57,093 bases of DNA from Sphaerisporangium sp. (GTDB lineage Bacteria > Actinomycetota > Actinomycetes > Streptosporangiales > Streptosporangiaceae): assembly GCA_025964675.1 (NCBI GenBank), contig JAOPYI010000132.1:1-57093 (forward strand), given 5' to 3'. The position numbers and the translations under genes are program-made. The notes under the pieces were generated by a model. It was given only the letters and a program-made list of their open reading frames with translations, had not been told where the DNA came from and did no database searches. Positions 25,452-30,548 of the stretch are shown here, piece by piece (positions within the stretch are counted from its first letter, which is position 1; every line of letters starts with the position of its first letter).

Positions 25452-25919
25452 ATGACCTCGATGATGATCAGTAACCGGCCGGCTGCGCGGGTGGTCTGTA
25501 TGGACGGCGGAGGCCGGATCCTGCTGATGCACTGGCGAGATCCCTTCAGTGGCGTGGTCTTCTGGGAGCCCCCTGGCGGTGGGATCGACGCAGGAGAGAC
25601 CCCGCTGGAGGCCGCGCGGCGGGAGCTGTTCGAGGAGACGGGACTTCCGGGTGACGCGGTGATCGACTTGTGGGTCCCGGTGGACCGGGACTACCACTGG
25701 CTGGGCGTCCACTATGTGAAGGTCGAGCCGTTCTACCTCGCCCGCTTCGCCGAGACCCCTGAAGTCGTCCCCACCACGCTCACCGGCGAGGAGCAGGACA
25801 CCTATCTCGGGCATCGCTGGTTCAGCCCAGCCGAGCTCGCGGCCCTTTCCGAGCCTGTCGAGCCTCCCACGCTGGCCGGGGTGATCGCCCTCCTCGGCCG
25901 GCGTCCGGCCCACGAGTGA
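25452..25919 (+). CDS. NUDIX hydrolase
   Basis: A 155-residue NUDIX-fold pyrophosphohydrolase. The box GGGIDAGETPLEAARRELFEETG (near residues 38-60) matches GX5EX7REUXEEXGU, with all metal-binding glutamates present. The substrate, some nucleoside diphosphate derivative, cannot be inferred. ATG 25452 begins MTSMMISNRPAARVVCMDGGGRILL; M4 or M5 are possible alternatives. It converges on the TPR gene. Confidence 0.92.
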   Translation: MTSMMISNRPAARVVCMDGGGRILLMHWRDPFSGVVFWEPPGGGIDAGETPLEAARRELFEETGLPGDAVIDLWVPVDRDYHWLGVHYVKVEPFYLARFAETPEVVPTTLTGEEQDTYLGHRWFSPAELAALSEPVEPPTLAGVIALLGRRPAHE

Positions 25920-25947: not shown

Positions 25948-27969
25948 TCAGGTGACCTCGCCGAGCGCTTTGACGATGTCGGGGTCATCCGAGTCCATGG
26001 CATGGGCGCGTCGAAGGTCGTCGAGGGCTTCCGCCGGCCTCCCAAGGTCCCTCAGGGCGATTGACCGGTTGAAGTACAGCTCGGCCTTCTCTTCCAGCTC
26101 CAGCGCGCGCGTCAGGTCCGCCACGGCCCCGGTGAGGTCGCCCGTCTCGTACCGCAGGCTCGCGCGGTTCGCCCAGGCGGGTACGAGGCCCGGCGCGCCG
26201 GCGAGCGCCACGTCGAAGGCCGTCCTCGCCTGCTCGAAGCGCCCCGCGGCGGTCTCCAGCTGGCCGAGCACGCAGGACAGGTGCGAGTTGCCGGGGGCGA
26301 GGCTGAGCCCCGCCTCGACGTCCGCCCGCGCCTGCTCGTCCAGGCCGAACTGGACGAGCAGTCCGGCCCGGTTGATGTAGGCGTCCAGGTAGCCGGGATC
26401 GAGCTCCAGCACGTGGTCGAGGTCGGCCTTGGCGCCTTCGAGATCTCCCGTGGCGAGCAGGAGCTGGGCACGGTTGTAGTAGCCCTCGGGAAGCGGCGGG
26501 CTGAGCGTGATCGCCGCCAGGTAGTCGGCGAGCGCGGCATCCGGCTGTCCCATCTGGAACAGCAGGTTTCCCCGGTCGAGGTAGTAGTCGGGATAGGCGG
26601 GGTCCATGGCGATCGCCGCGTCCAGGTCGGCCAGCGCGCCCTTCGGGTGCCCGAGCAATCCGAGGAGCTGCGCCCGGTTGGCTCGCAGGACCATGCGGTG
26701 GATCATGTGGCGCCCCGGCGGCAGGTCGTCCTCTGCCAGCTCGATCGCCGACTCGACGAGCGCGAGCGCCCGGTCGGCGTCGCCGCCGCGCATCTCGATG
26801 AGGGCCTTGCCGTTGAGGTCGAAGCCCAGCTTGAAGGCGCGGACGGAGCGATCGGGCAGCAGGTGGGAGATGGCGATGGCCTCGTTGATCCAGCCCTGGG
26901 CCCGGCCGAGGTCGCGCCGGGCGGGATCGGGATGGCGCGCGTCGAGCATGGCAGTGCCGTACGCCGACGCCGAGTGGACCTCGGCGTCCAGGCTGGCGCG
27001 GCGTGCCCGCTCGTACAGCTCCCGGGCCTCGTCCCTGCGGCCCAGCCCGGCCAGGGCCGTCGCCGTACCCTGGGTGAGGTTCCACCATCGGCCCGTTCCG
27101 GCCCCGGCCAGCCGCAGGCCGCGCAGCCCGGCATCGGCCGCCGCCTCCAGGAAACCCTCGCGCATGCAGTGGTCGAGCACGGTCCAGAGCGCCTCGACGC
27201 CCGCACCCGACGGGTCGCTTCCGTGCTCCCGGTGGTAGGCGATGGCGCCGAACGACCAGGACGGCTCGCCGGTGGCGGCCAGCTCGTCGGCTCGCCGGTC
27301 GTGCAGGCGGGCGCGCTCGGCCGGTGGCAGCGCCTGGTACGCGGTGATCGCCAGGGGGTCGTCGAGGGTGCCGTCGGATGCGACATAACGAGGGGCGAGG
27401 TTTTCCGGTTCGCCCAAAGCCGATAATTCGGCCTTTATGACCTGACCATCAAAAGAATCGGGTGGAGCTTTACGGGAACATGCCACAATTGTCAAACGCC
27501 GGGAGTCGAAACGGCGCACAAGCGTGGCGAGGAGTTCGCGATCGGTCTCGTCGGCCTCGTCGACGTTGTCGACGACGATAGGCCCGCCGACCACGCCGCA
27601 GTCCCGGATGAATTCGGTGATTCCATTGGCGATCCTCAGGACACGGCGGGGAGCCGGCACGAGGATGCGCTCCTCCTCGGAAAGGCGCGCGTCGAGAGGT
27701 TCACGGCGGGCGATCACCCGATCACGGAGATCGGGTGCCGCCGCTCGGATCTCGATGTCGTGCTCGGCGACCACATCGGAGGAGCGCTCCAACGCCGCCG
27801 GAAGCAGGACTCGCAGAAGCGCTCCACCGAAGGTGTACGGCCCCCGCAGGCGACGGTGAGCGTCGAACACAGGGGCCGGCCACGAGGGAAGTCCCAGACC
27901 GGCGAGCACGCCGAGCCGGTCCTTCGAACGCGCTCCGCAGACCCAGAGGTGGTCAGGGCGGGTGATCAC
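25948..27969 (-). CDS. TPR protein with a degenerate ATPase-like N-terminus, coupled to a small peptide gene
   Basis: A 673-residue protein in two parts. Residues 1-175 look like a decayed STAND/LuxR-type ATPase: there is no P-loop, but VVDNVDEADETDRELLATLVRRF (about 132-154) followed by LTIVACSRK resembles a Walker B and sensor region. From about residue 290 to the end there are many tetratricopeptide repeats (for example GNLLFQMGQPDAALADYLAAI), with at least seven in the last 300 residues. The start is GTG 27969, whose GTGA overlaps the stop of a 24-codon peptide gene by four bases, so the two are translated together. TPR arrays bind peptides or proteins; the peptide or its modified form may be the ligand or client. 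No database match is claimed. Confidence 0.85.
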   Translation of the reverse strand: MITRPDHLWVCGARSKDRLGVLAGLGLPSWPAPVFDAHRRLRGPYTFGGALLRVLLPAALERSSDVVAEHDIEIRAAAPDLRDRVIARREPLDARLSEEERILVPAPRRVLRIANGITEFIRDCGVVGGPIVVDNVDEADETDRELLATLVRRFDSRRLTIVACSRKAPPDSFDGQVIKAELSALGEPENLAPRYVASDGTLDDPLAITAYQALPPAERARLHDRRADELAATGEPSWSFGAIAYHREHGSDPSGAGVEALWTVLDHCMREGFLEAAADAGLRGLRLAGAGTGRWWNLTQGTATALAGLGRRDEARELYERARRASLDAEVHSASAYGTAMLDARHPDPARRDLGRAQGWINEAIAISHLLPDRSVRAFKLGFDLNGKALIEMRGGDADRALALVESAIELAEDDLPPGRHMIHRMVLRANRAQLLGLLGHPKGALADLDAAIAMDPAYPDYYLDRGNLLFQMGQPDAALADYLAAITLSPPLPEGYYNRAQLLLATGDLEGAKADLDHVLELDPGYLDAYINRAGLLVQFGLDEQARADVEAGLSLAPGNSHLSCVLGQLETAAGRFEQARTAFDVALAGAPGLVPAWANRASLRYETGDLTGAVADLTRALELEEKAELYFNRSIALRDLGRPAEALDDLRRAHAMDSDDPDIVKALGEVT

Positions 27970-28040
27970 CCCTTGTGGATCACACTTGCCGTGCCGGTCA
28001 GGTGCACCATGCCAGGCTTGCGGACGATGATCTTCTTCAT
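27966..28040 (-). CDS. 24-residue peptide, possible RiPP precursor or signal peptide
   Basis: A short gene on the minus strand: ATG at 28040, TGA at 27966-27968. The peptide begins MKKIIVRKPG, is strongly basic in its first half, continues with the VHLTGT segment and ends ASVIHKG; it has no cysteine, two threonines, one serine and two histidines. A textbook ribosome site (GAGGAGG) lies about seven bases upstream, and the stop overlaps the TPR gene start (GTGA). Both argue strongly for translation. It is too short for ordinary gene calling. It could be a ribosomally made, modified peptide with the KKIIVRKPG part as leader, a signal peptide, or a leader peptide controlling the TPR gene. I do not recognise the family. 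Confidence 0.7.
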   Translation of the reverse strand: MKKIIVRKPGMVHLTGTASVIHKG

Positions 28041-28141
28041 AGCTTGTCCTCCTCAGGTCTTCAGCTACAAAGTCCTAATTATTCGGACAAATCGATAATC
28101 CGCAAGTATTACACCTAGATTGTCATGCAAATCGATTGGGT
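28041..28141 (-). promoter_or_regulatory. AT-rich region with 9-bp direct repeats upstream of the peptide gene
   Basis: This 100-base gap is far lower in GC than the rest of the window. CAAATCGAT occurs twice, at 28088-28096 and 28128-28136, exactly 40 bases apart (about four helical turns), and each copy contains the palindrome ATCGAT. On the minus strand TTGCGG-17-ATAATT is a possible promoter pointing at the peptide gene. The repeats are candidate regulator sites. Confidence 0.45.
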
Positions 28142-28639
28142 CTAACGGGTGAGTTGCGACGACGGTTCCGCGATCAGCTGCTTCTCTCCGTAAACAACGA
28201 CAAGTCCGCCTCTCTCCTCCCTGCGCAGTTCACGCCAGCCGTACTTGCGATACAGCTCCAAAGCTGCCCCTTGCCCCAGGGTCGTGTCACCTCGCAGGAT
28301 GCGATAGCCGAGTTGCGCCGCGGACTCCTCGAGCGCGTCGAGGATCAGGGTGCCGAACCCCCGCCGCTGGAAGTCCGGATGGACCCGTAACCGGCACATC
28401 TCGGCCGTCTCATCGTCGATCCGCCGCAGCCCGCCCATGGCGACGATCCCGGCGCCGTCCACCTCACCGACGAGGAACTCCCCCCGGTCGGCGAGGTAGA
28501 GCCGGTTGATGTGCGGGATGTCGTCCTCGTAGTAGACCCCGTCCCCATGGGTGATACCGACCTGCGCCAGGCAGGTGCGGTGCAGCCCCCAGACGGCTTC
28601 CCGATCTGACCAGCGATACCGCCTGAGCACAAGCCTCAT
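28142..28639 (-). CDS. GNAT-family acetyltransferase
   Basis: A 165-residue GNAT enzyme transferring an acetyl group from acetyl-CoA to an unknown amine. The fold is complete: MRLVLRRYRWSDREAV opens it, MCRLRVHPDFQRRGFGTLILDALE holds the acetyl-CoA loop (QRRGFGT), and ALELYRKYGWREL is the usual C-terminal motif. ATG 28639 overlaps the stop of the XRE regulator gene (ATGA), so the two are translationally coupled; the longer frame to 28750 lies inside that gene. Confidence 0.92.
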   Translation of the reverse strand: MRLVLRRYRWSDREAVWGLHRTCLAQVGITHGDGVYYEDDIPHINRLYLADRGEFLVGEVDGAGIVAMGGLRRIDDETAEMCRLRVHPDFQRRGFGTLILDALEESAAQLGYRILRGDTTLGQGAALELYRKYGWRELRREERGGLVVVYGEKQLIAEPSSQLTR

Positions 28640-30225
28640 ACACCGGCCTCCGCCGTTGAAGTCGAGGGAGCCTCCGGCGCAGAGGAAGCCTCCGGCACCC
28701 GCGAGGCAAGGGTCTCGTTGAACCCCGCCAGCCCGGGGATCTCGCCGCATCTCACCTGGATCGCCTTGGACAGGTCGAAGGCCCGGCTCAGGATGATGTC
28801 CGTGCGGAAGTCGACACCAACCTGCTTCACCGCCTCATGCCCGATCCTCAAAGCCTCCTCGCCGTCGCCCTCGATCACCCTGCAGTGCGCCTGGTCCAAG
28901 CGGATGAGCGTCTGGTCGAGCAGGTCGCCTTCGTACTTCTCCAGCGCCTGCTCCAGGATCAGGTCGGCCTCAATGGTCTGGCCCAGCCGGGTCAGTGCGT
29001 CGCCCTGGTGGAAGTAGAGCTGGCGCTCGGTGTAGCCGAAGGCGGTGTCCTCCTGCTGCGCGGGCGTCATCTGGGCGAACGCCGCCCGCGCGCGTGCCAG
29101 CGCCCGCTTGGCCTGGTCCACGACGTCCTTCTTGCCGCCGGAGTTCGCGAGCATGGACAGTGCGCGGGCCTCCACGACCGGAGCCATGGCCTTGGCCGCG
29201 CACGGTGTCTGCCCGGCCAGATCGCGGCTCTTCTTGGCCAGGTTGAGCGCCTCCCGGGGATCGCCGTAGAAAAGTGGGACAAGGGCCTCCCGGGCCGTGA
29301 CCCAGGCGCGCAGCGCACGGTCGCCGGTCTCGTCGGCGGCCGTGCGCGATGTACGGAAGAACGACCGGGCCATCCTCTGGTCACCGAGGTCGATCATGAT
29401 GATTCCGGCCAGGCCGGAGAGCCGGGCGGCGAGGGCGCAGAGACGCTCCTGAAGATCGATGGGCTGATGGTGCTCCATCGCCTGGCGCACCGTGCTGAAC
29501 TCCAGCAGCACGTCGCAGAGTTGGCGCATCGGGGGCGTGTTCATGTACTGCCGGCCGAAGGAAGCCGTCGCCTCCTCCCAGTGGTCAAGCATGGCCGGGG
29601 AGACAGTGGTCGAAACGAGGGTCTCGTCCATGCGCCGGCGGATGTTGTCGGCCGCGCCGAGCACCGACTCGTTCAACGGCACCGCGGTACCCGCTATGAG
29701 TTTCAGCAGCGTTCTACGTAACACGTTCTCGTCCTCCTCACCCCCGTTCAAAGAGGGGTCGCTGAGCGGCCTTGTCCACAGCTCGCGCGAGTCGGGGGAA
29801 CTGTCGGGTTCGAGCTCCTGGAGGCCGCCACCCCGTACGACACCCGGCATCCGGTGGCCATGGCCACAGATGCACGGACCGTCGTACCCGAGGGCCGCCG
29901 GCTCGACCCGGTAGACCGAACACAGGTAGTGGAGGTACTCCGGACCGGGGCGCTTCAGACCGCTCTCGTAAGCGCTCAGAAGCGTCTCCCCGATGCCTGG
30001 CACCGGTTTGCCGTCGCGTTCGAATAAGGCACGTACCTGTTCGATTACGTCGGCAAGGGCGATGCCATGGGCGAGGCGGTGAGATTTGATTCGAGTTGTC
30101 CCGAAATGAGGAGTACACGCTTCAAATACCTCTTCGGCGATTCGGGCCGTAGCGCGCCCGACCGCCAAGCCGCGCGCCCGGGTTTGCCGCGCTAACTCCG
30201 TTTCCTTGTGCTGTCTGCCGGACAT
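28636..30225 (-). CDS. XRE-family regulator with TPR-like C-terminal half
   Basis: A 529-residue transcription factor. The N-terminal 40 residues are basic, then an XRE helix-turn-helix occupies about residues 46-108 (RLAHGIALADVIEQV to YESGLKRPGPEYLHYLCSVYRV), followed by a CICGHGH cluster at about 118-124 that could bind metal. From about 250 to 500 there are helical repeats of TPR character (GDALTRLGQTIEADLILEQALEKYEGD). The plan resembles RRNPP-like and related actinobacterial regulators, whose repeat domains may bind peptides; that function is inference. ATG 30225 has GGAGAGGGG upstream. It is coupled to the GNAT gene and transcribed toward the peptide/TPR pair. Confidence 0.85.
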   Translation of the reverse strand: MSGRQHKETELARQTRARGLAVGRATARIAEEVFEACTPHFGTTRIKSHRLAHGIALADVIEQVRALFERDGKPVPGIGETLLSAYESGLKRPGPEYLHYLCSVYRVEPAALGYDGPCICGHGHRMPGVVRGGGLQELEPDSSPDSRELWTRPLSDPSLNGGEEDENVLRRTLLKLIAGTAVPLNESVLGAADNIRRRMDETLVSTTVSPAMLDHWEEATASFGRQYMNTPPMRQLCDVLLEFSTVRQAMEHHQPIDLQERLCALAARLSGLAGIIMIDLGDQRMARSFFRTSRTAADETGDRALRAWVTAREALVPLFYGDPREALNLAKKSRDLAGQTPCAAKAMAPVVEARALSMLANSGGKKDVVDQAKRALARARAAFAQMTPAQQEDTAFGYTERQLYFHQGDALTRLGQTIEADLILEQALEKYEGDLLDQTLIRLDQAHCRVIEGDGEEALRIGHEAVKQVGVDFRTDIILSRAFDLSKAIQVRCGEIPGLAGFNETLASRVPEASSAPEAPSTSTAEAGV

Positions 30226-30548
30226 ACCGGCCCCTCTCCTGTGGCCAGCCGCTCGTCCTGGTTGTCCATACCGACCCATCCCACCTGCGCTGACGCAACA
30301 TCGCGCCGGGTTAGGCTGCGTCTATCGAGAATGATGGACCAGTTATGACGAGACGTGAATGGAGTATTGAAGCTGCTGACATAGAATCGTCCCTCTCCGG
30401 GGACGTTCTTTCAACCCACTTCAAATATCCGCCCCTCCGACCGACCCCTGACGTTCGTTGACCTGTCGGCACAGGTGAGTCAGATTTGGCCGACCACCCC
30501 GATTCGCCGGCGTCATCGCCGCGGAATCGGACTAGAGGAAGGCTCGAA
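30226..30548. other. Divergent intergenic region, XRE regulator to 30549 gene
   Basis: A 323-base spacer between divergent genes, moderately AT-rich at 30335-30430. On the plus strand TTGACC (30458-30463) and CAGATT (30481-30486) are 17 bases apart and point to the 89-residue gene. A TAGGCT -10-like hexamer is at 30312-30317. It is a likely site for autoregulation by the XRE protein. No additional ORF is convincing. Confidence 0.4.

Follow-up and report, generated by a model that had tools for sequence, protein, structure and literature searches.

The window analysed here, a stretch of 57,093 nucleotides of Sphaerisporangium DNA, carries on its reverse strand a gene of 24 codons that runs directly into the gene of a 673-residue TPR protein. 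We propose, with a probability of roughly 0.55 and on the strength of sequence comparisons, that the two genes encode a cognate peptide-receptor module in which the peptide would be the dedicated ligand of the TPR protein. We found the pair to be conserved within one actinomycete family and related to a three-gene system in which a gene for a PqqD-like and M50-like protein (PqqD-M50) stands between the peptide gene and the TPR gene. As far as we searched, in open-licence PubMed Central, the pair is undescribed; no description of it was present among the matches listed.

The peptide gene (27966..28040, reverse strand) starts with the ATG at 28040, is preceded by a GAGGAGG ribosome-binding site (28048..28054, reverse strand) and encodes the cysteine-free 24-residue peptide MKKIIVRKPGMVHLTGTASVIHKG. 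Its TGA (27968-27966) shares bases with the GTG start (27969-27967) of the TPR gene (25948..27969, reverse strand), so that the two genes overlap by the four bases GTGA (27966..27969, reverse strand). No family in Pfam or NCBIfam matched the window peptide, and no known NCBIfam family matched four peptides of the three-gene system. A signal peptide was not seen by eye.

A search with the TPR protein against 100 related genomes produced matches at E <= 0.001 in 39 of them (30 loci). Twenty-six of the 30 loci made up one TPR group, that of the window, and a peptide of the same family was located directly upstream in 25 of these; in the single exception (L027, genome G060) the peptide sits elsewhere in the genome. 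A profile made from 21 peptides was then compared with 341 genomes of the family. It matched at E 1.6e-8 or better in 149 genomes of 26 genera (hand count), while the next genome had an E-value of 2e-6; of the 313 matches at E <= 1, the majority resembled chance. The TPR gene followed the peptide gene in 34 out of 36 loci with strong peptide matches (L031-L066, the window included). Among 61 genomes of the family (G000-G060), all 28 with a TPR gene of the two-gene type had the peptide at E 3.5e-9 or better, the three with only a three-gene TPR gene had peptide matches at E 3.9e-5 to 0.04, and in the 30 with no TPR match at E 1e-100 no peptide scored better than E 0.005; the scores are inflated, as the profile was built partly from the same genomes, but the contrast of 28 versus 0 is not caused thereby.

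For 44 distinct 24-codon sequences the median dN/dS was 0.22 (906 of 946 pairs were usable), and the differences per site at codon positions 1, 2 and 3 were 0.20, 0.19 and 0.43, respectively. We observed the same excess at the third position separately in the two clades of two-gene loci, A (42 sequences) and B (29 sequences), and in peptide genes orphaned of their TPR gene (6 sequences). Judged by these substitutions, the peptide codons are under purifying selection. Since peptides of the same sequence stand upstream of TPR relatives in other genera and since the third-position excess is present, the peptide gene is, by its sequence record, real; conservation and codon selection rule out a chance frame. 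An earlier note on this DNA, made from the letters alone, had described the 24-codon frame with its ATG, GAGGAGG, GTGA overlap and lack of cysteine, all of which the DNA confirms. It had pointed to the regions upstream of TPR homologues and to third-base substitutions as the places to look, and its view of peptide and TPR protein as one functional module is well supported by the peptides present at 25 of the 26 loci of the window's group together with the selection seen on the 24 codons.

The relation to a larger system became visible at weaker peptide matches. Six of seven such places were fetched, and all six had an extra gene between the peptide gene and the TPR gene. Its product has about 400 residues and an HE..H motif that is invariant in 45 aligned relatives. 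At E <= 0.1, Peptidase_M50 matched 14 of the 45 relatives, PqqD matched five and a lasso PqqD model matched nine; wherever curated cut-offs were shown, the matches were below them. A profile of this middle protein compared with solved structures matched only TfuB1 (E 0.075) and TbiB1 (E 0.45), in both cases over the first 90 residues or so. The matches, each weak, agree with one another, and the middle protein can be described as a membrane protein with PqqD-like and M50-like parts.

A scan of named genomes identified 107 relatives of the middle protein, and 80 of these were kept (L077-L156). The genera with the three-gene set include Micromonospora, Streptomyces, Kitasatospora, Lentzea, Streptosporangium and Actinokineospora. 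At all 80 loci the downstream TPR protein was homologous to that of the window, and a peptide was present at 79, in 72 cases by a strict pattern and in seven of the other eight by a looser look, which returned some N-terminally extended peptides; L154 was the only locus that had none. Peptide genes may occur there in tandem, with three copies in L081, four in L138 and five in L140. The five tandem genes of L140, precursor-like and with diverse tails, lie at about -992 to -189 upstream of the PqqD-M50 gene. The set of peptide, PqqD-M50 and TPR genes is apparently undescribed, although spread across many actinomycete genera.

Several features near three-gene loci could be of interest in themselves. 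A flavin-reductase-like gene was recognised, by reading and not by family search, in 32 of the 80 loci, and SARP/BTAD-like regulators, also by reading, near some of them. In L091 and L108 a gene resembling a B12-binding radical SAM enzyme (by reading) is positioned directly upstream of the peptide and PqqD-M50 genes; the peptides of these two loci are extended at the N-terminus, and their tails end in PWPF or PWPY. At L069:2092-2265, within about 4 kb of a Micromonospora-like three-gene set, lies a putative ATP-grasp-target RiPP precursor (TIGR04497, E 2.4e-9). In one genus, several genomes gave distant PqqD-M50 matches (E about 1e-64) that continue past a single TAG, for example at G356:C1:4702739-4703923, G350:C66:12247-13434 and G015:C16:104390-105583.

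The genome of the window holds both forms, the window pair and a three-gene copy (G000:C303) that contains its only PqqD-M50 gene at E 1e-20. The three-gene TPR protein of another genome of the genus (G002) is identical to its counterpart in Sphaerisporangium sp. TRM90804. We also considered whether the three-gene copy supplies a protease in trans to the pair. This is not required, as a close PqqD-M50 match is lacking in five of the 11 genomes of the genus, all five of which have the pair; four of these genomes gave distant matches at E 1e-29 to 1e-53 and one gave none at E 1e-20.

Across the wider peptide family (80 named actinomycete loci) the front, MKKIxVRKxGxVRLT, is conserved and the tail is variable, with lengths mostly of 25 to 38 residues. 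The three-gene peptides collected with one pattern (68 distinct) have 25 to 38 residues, T15 in all 68, Y22 in 59 and a variable tail. The two-gene peptides (31 distinct in clade A and 26 in clade B), however, have 24 residues and His22 in 57 cases out of 57, this His22 replacing the Tyr22 of the three-gene peptides; counted by locus, the length is 24 residues in 50 of 50 cases in clade A and in 33 of 35 in clade B. The window peptide is of the MKKIxVRKxG type shared with the three-gene system, while the window pair has no PqqD-M50 gene between its two overlapping genes. A quick, midpoint-rooted tree of 93 TPR proteins, four of the two-gene rows being under 500 residues, placed the 41 rows of the two-gene type in one group (SH-aLRT 100), which split into A (22 rows) and B (19 rows). 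The window protein belongs to clade A. A class-wide sample of 394 genomes gave only three matches outside the family, all of them three-gene copies. Such sequence relationships make the window pair, apparently, a protease-less derivative of the larger system. Because the two-gene TPR proteins form a single group and the matches outside the family are all three-gene copies, we infer that the PqqD-M50 gene was lost once, the direction (loss and not gain) being read from a tree whose root is a midpoint.

The two clades differ in how the genes are joined. A GTG over the peptide stop that opens a frame of at least 150 codons was present in 46 of 49 clade-A loci and in none of 29 clade-B loci checked; two clade-B loci do spell GTGA, yet the frames open for just 38 and 52 codons. 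The four-base overlap is therefore a feature of TPR clade A only. Adjacency is not universal either: the peptide persists in some genomes unlinked or without a TPR neighbour, and in G060 and G026 both peptide and TPR protein are kept, though far apart. At one locus of G060 (L179, on contig C62) a clade-B TPR gene without a peptide lies beside ftsY, and the nearest related peptide is on another contig (L177). The reverse was observed in G053 (L074), where a peptide gene lies beside ftsY without a TPR gene.

Residue 7 of the peptide follows the TPR clade. In a non-random sample of 99 loci, some of which were fetched for looking orphaned, and with a search pattern that allowed R, H, C or Q, residue 7 was Arg in 49 of 50 peptides linked to clade A (Cys in the remaining one) and His in all 35 linked to clade B. 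It was also His in all 11 peptides at the clade-A site whose TPR gene is gone, and in the three other peptides that had no adjacent TPR gene. With position 7 left free, all 84 three-gene peptides (69 distinct, 73 loci) had Arg7. In the TPR protein, residue 274 (window positions 27148-27150) is a candidate specificity position, being Leu throughout the clade-A rows, His throughout those of clade B and Tyr in 48 of 52 three-gene rows. Acidic TPR residues tracking the choice between Arg7 and His7 were looked for and none were found.

Upstream of all 11 orphans stand the GNAT-type and NsdA-like genes of the clade-A site; none of these stretches contains a TPR relative, the NUDIX gene follows in eight, and all 11 genomes hold a clade-B TPR gene elsewhere. 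In genus g6, for example, clade B is present in 16 of 16 genomes; three keep the clade-A TPR gene and have Arg7 in the peptide beside it, ten have an orphaned peptide with His7, and the other three have no peptide at the clade-A site at E 1e-4. On a tree of neighbouring genes (32 loci, with seven of the 11 orphans) loss of the clade-A TPR gene and the change from Arg to His, three changes each, coincide; when only well-supported branches are counted, two independent pairs of such changes remain, which is not significant, and the change from Arg7 to His is a single CpG transition. These patterns are suggestive of re-pairing of the orphans in trans with the clade-B TPR protein, a story that we hold with lower confidence than the ligand mechanism. 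The orphans may instead be decaying: three of them (G347, G357 and G358) have diverged in their middle part, one (G265) is extended at the C-terminus, and those three genomes of g6 show no peptide at the site at that E-value.

In the TPR protein, Pfam TPR_2 matched with E 9.8e-33, and the array spans about residues 430-671 (25957..26682, reverse strand). A degenerate AAA_16/STAND-like segment is located at residues 47-162 (27484..27831, reverse strand). The AAA_16 match is weak, with E 0.0029, below the curated cut-off, for the whole protein and E 0.00036 for the N-terminal part alone. The alignment runs from residue 47 or 48 to 162 and covers only profile positions 69/70-167, and AAA_16 was matched at E <= 0.1 by 21 of 24 N-terminal parts of relatives. 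The unmatched first portion of the profile is, we assume, the one that holds the P-loop. The earlier note's long C-terminal TPR array is borne out, and its wording of a Walker-B-like segment without a P-loop was a fair one for so partial a match. Neither an HTH or other DNA-binding domain (at E <= 0.1) nor an effector domain was found among the Pfam matches, and comparison of the N-terminal part with solved structures gave one chance match, and none with a profile search.

The chromosomal surroundings of the clade-A site are conserved. Upstream on the same strand lie a GNAT-type gene (28142..28750, reverse strand; its true start is probably near 28639) and a gene for an NsdA-family TPR-like regulator (28636..30279, reverse strand; NCBIfam NF053720, E 3.4e-40), and downstream a NUDIX gene (25452..25919) on the opposite, forward strand. 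No metallopeptidase gene was found in the neighbourhood of the window pair. A putative promoter (28078..28105, reverse strand) consists of TTGCGG (28105-28100), a spacer of 16 bases and AATAAT (28083-28078), 37 bases before the ATG. An element of the form TTG(G/C)C...AATA(A/C)T was present in 30 of 47 clade-A loci compared to 0.14 expected in shuffles, for a motif picked after seeing the very sequences counted. It was located 27 to 50 bases ahead of the start codon (112 in two cases). The same element was detected in five of seven orphan loci, in one of 31 loci labelled clade B (two of which were later moved to A) and in none of nine three-gene loci. A generic scan for consensus promoters gave nothing at the window's putative promoter.

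The mechanism that we favour starts from an ancestor with a short precursor-like peptide, a PqqD-like/M50-type membrane protein and a TPR protein whose N-terminal part is of a degenerate STAND/AAA type. There the PqqD-like domain would recognise and bind the conserved front half of the peptide, and the M50-type protease would free the variable tail. In the window lineage the protease gene would have been lost once, the tail would have become fixed as the short SxIHKG end, and the entire 24-residue peptide would have turned into the ligand of the TPR protein. Its front half would dock in the TPR superhelix with residue 7 as specificity contact, and its docking, probably an intracellular event, would determine the state of the ATPase-like part; physical binding, the intracellular site and any output are predictions of this model. 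The fuller account, that a RiPP-type leader outlived its protease and core to become a TPR partner, with residue 7 setting the clade and orphans re-specialising in trans, is tentative, and we put it somewhat short of even odds.

Other readings of the pair draw on known systems. Unlinked enzymes could modify and trim the peptide as a RiPP precursor, with the TPR protein as maturation scaffold, carrier or immunity protein. The kin peptides are indeed precursor-like, with a conserved front, a variable tail, up to five tandem copies (L140) and an adjacent PqqD-M50 gene, and M50 proteases act in RiPP pathways, those of epipeptides (EpeP) and pearlins (TglG, TmoG), according to the cited passages of PMC10885120. 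These proteases resemble the three-gene relatives in combining a membrane M50 protease with a short ribosomal peptide; in the relatives, however, the M50 part forms a fusion with a PqqD-like domain and has a TPR partner, and the window has no such protease. TfuB1 and TbiB1, the lasso recognition proteins, are only weakly like the three-gene middle protein, and no such protein belongs to the window pair. In a word search of the main texts of PMC7470986 and PMC12710340, two papers on recognition elements, neither M50 nor TPR came up. A conserved leader with a variable core is what the three-gene relatives have and what the window peptide lacks, all of its 24 residues being constrained and all 57 distinct two-gene peptides ending at residue 24. 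Neither between the two genes nor immediately next to them, where the GNAT, NsdA-like and NUDIX genes stand, is there a maturation gene, and the five genomes of the genus that have the pair and no close PqqD-M50 match also speak against a precursor, a role that we consider unlikely. A signalling peptide that leaves the cell, is processed outside it, is taken up again and is then sensed by the TPR protein would follow RRNPP quorum sensing (Rap/Phr, NprR, PlcR), whose defining layout in the cited part of PMC10075063 is an adjacent small-peptide gene and TPR-receptor gene, as in the window. But the window peptide has no signal peptide by eye, and it is conserved from end to end, where a pro-peptide would have a free front and RRNPP peptides have a variable pro-region. 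The TPR protein has no DNA-binding domain among its Pfam matches and is of a different TPR family, in actinomycetes rather than Firmicutes, and a peptide of the same sequence across species would not tell kin from others. Such signalling thus seems quite unlikely.

The closest published idea is that of Kaur et al. 2020 (PMC7159879), in the cited passages of which actinobacterial peptide-processing systems are coupled to AP-ATPase-TPR proteins. Like the three-gene relatives, these systems are actinobacterial and bring together, within one neighbourhood, a short peptide, a metallopeptidase and an ATPase-TPR protein. In those passages the peptidase is zincin-like and the peptides are FxSxx, RxD or acidic ones, whereas the peptides here are of the MKKIxVRKxG type, the relatives have a PqqD-M50 fusion and the window has no peptidase at all; no match to a system of this kind was found in NCBIfam at E <= 1. 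The same passages propose metallopeptidase and AP-ATPase-TPR systems as parts of conflict systems, and the window peptide could accordingly trigger or restrain a STAND-like TPR effector in a toxin-antitoxin-like module. With no effector domain among the Pfam matches, a degenerate nucleotide site and stable chromosomal neighbours instead of a mobile pattern, we regard a conflict role as highly improbable. Finally, the 24 codons could act only in cis, starting or attenuating translation of the TPR gene, with no role for the peptide itself, an arrangement for which the overlap of GTG and TGA at the 46 clade-A loci would be suited. Selection on the amino acids, the lack of the overlap in clade B and intact conserved peptides with no adjacent TPR gene (the 11 clade-A-site orphans) or a distant one (G026, G060) largely refute a purely cis-acting leader, to which we give hardly any credence.

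The pair, read as a peptide with its cognate TPR receptor, adds to a large part of one actinomycete family a conserved peptide gene that is absent from the family libraries searched, and ties this gene to an apparently undescribed PqqD-M50-TPR system of many antibiotic-producing genera. If the proposed mechanism is true, the recognition sequence of a peptide-maturation system can come to serve as a ligand itself, and the Arg7 and His7 pairs would make a natural set for the study of peptide-TPR specificity.
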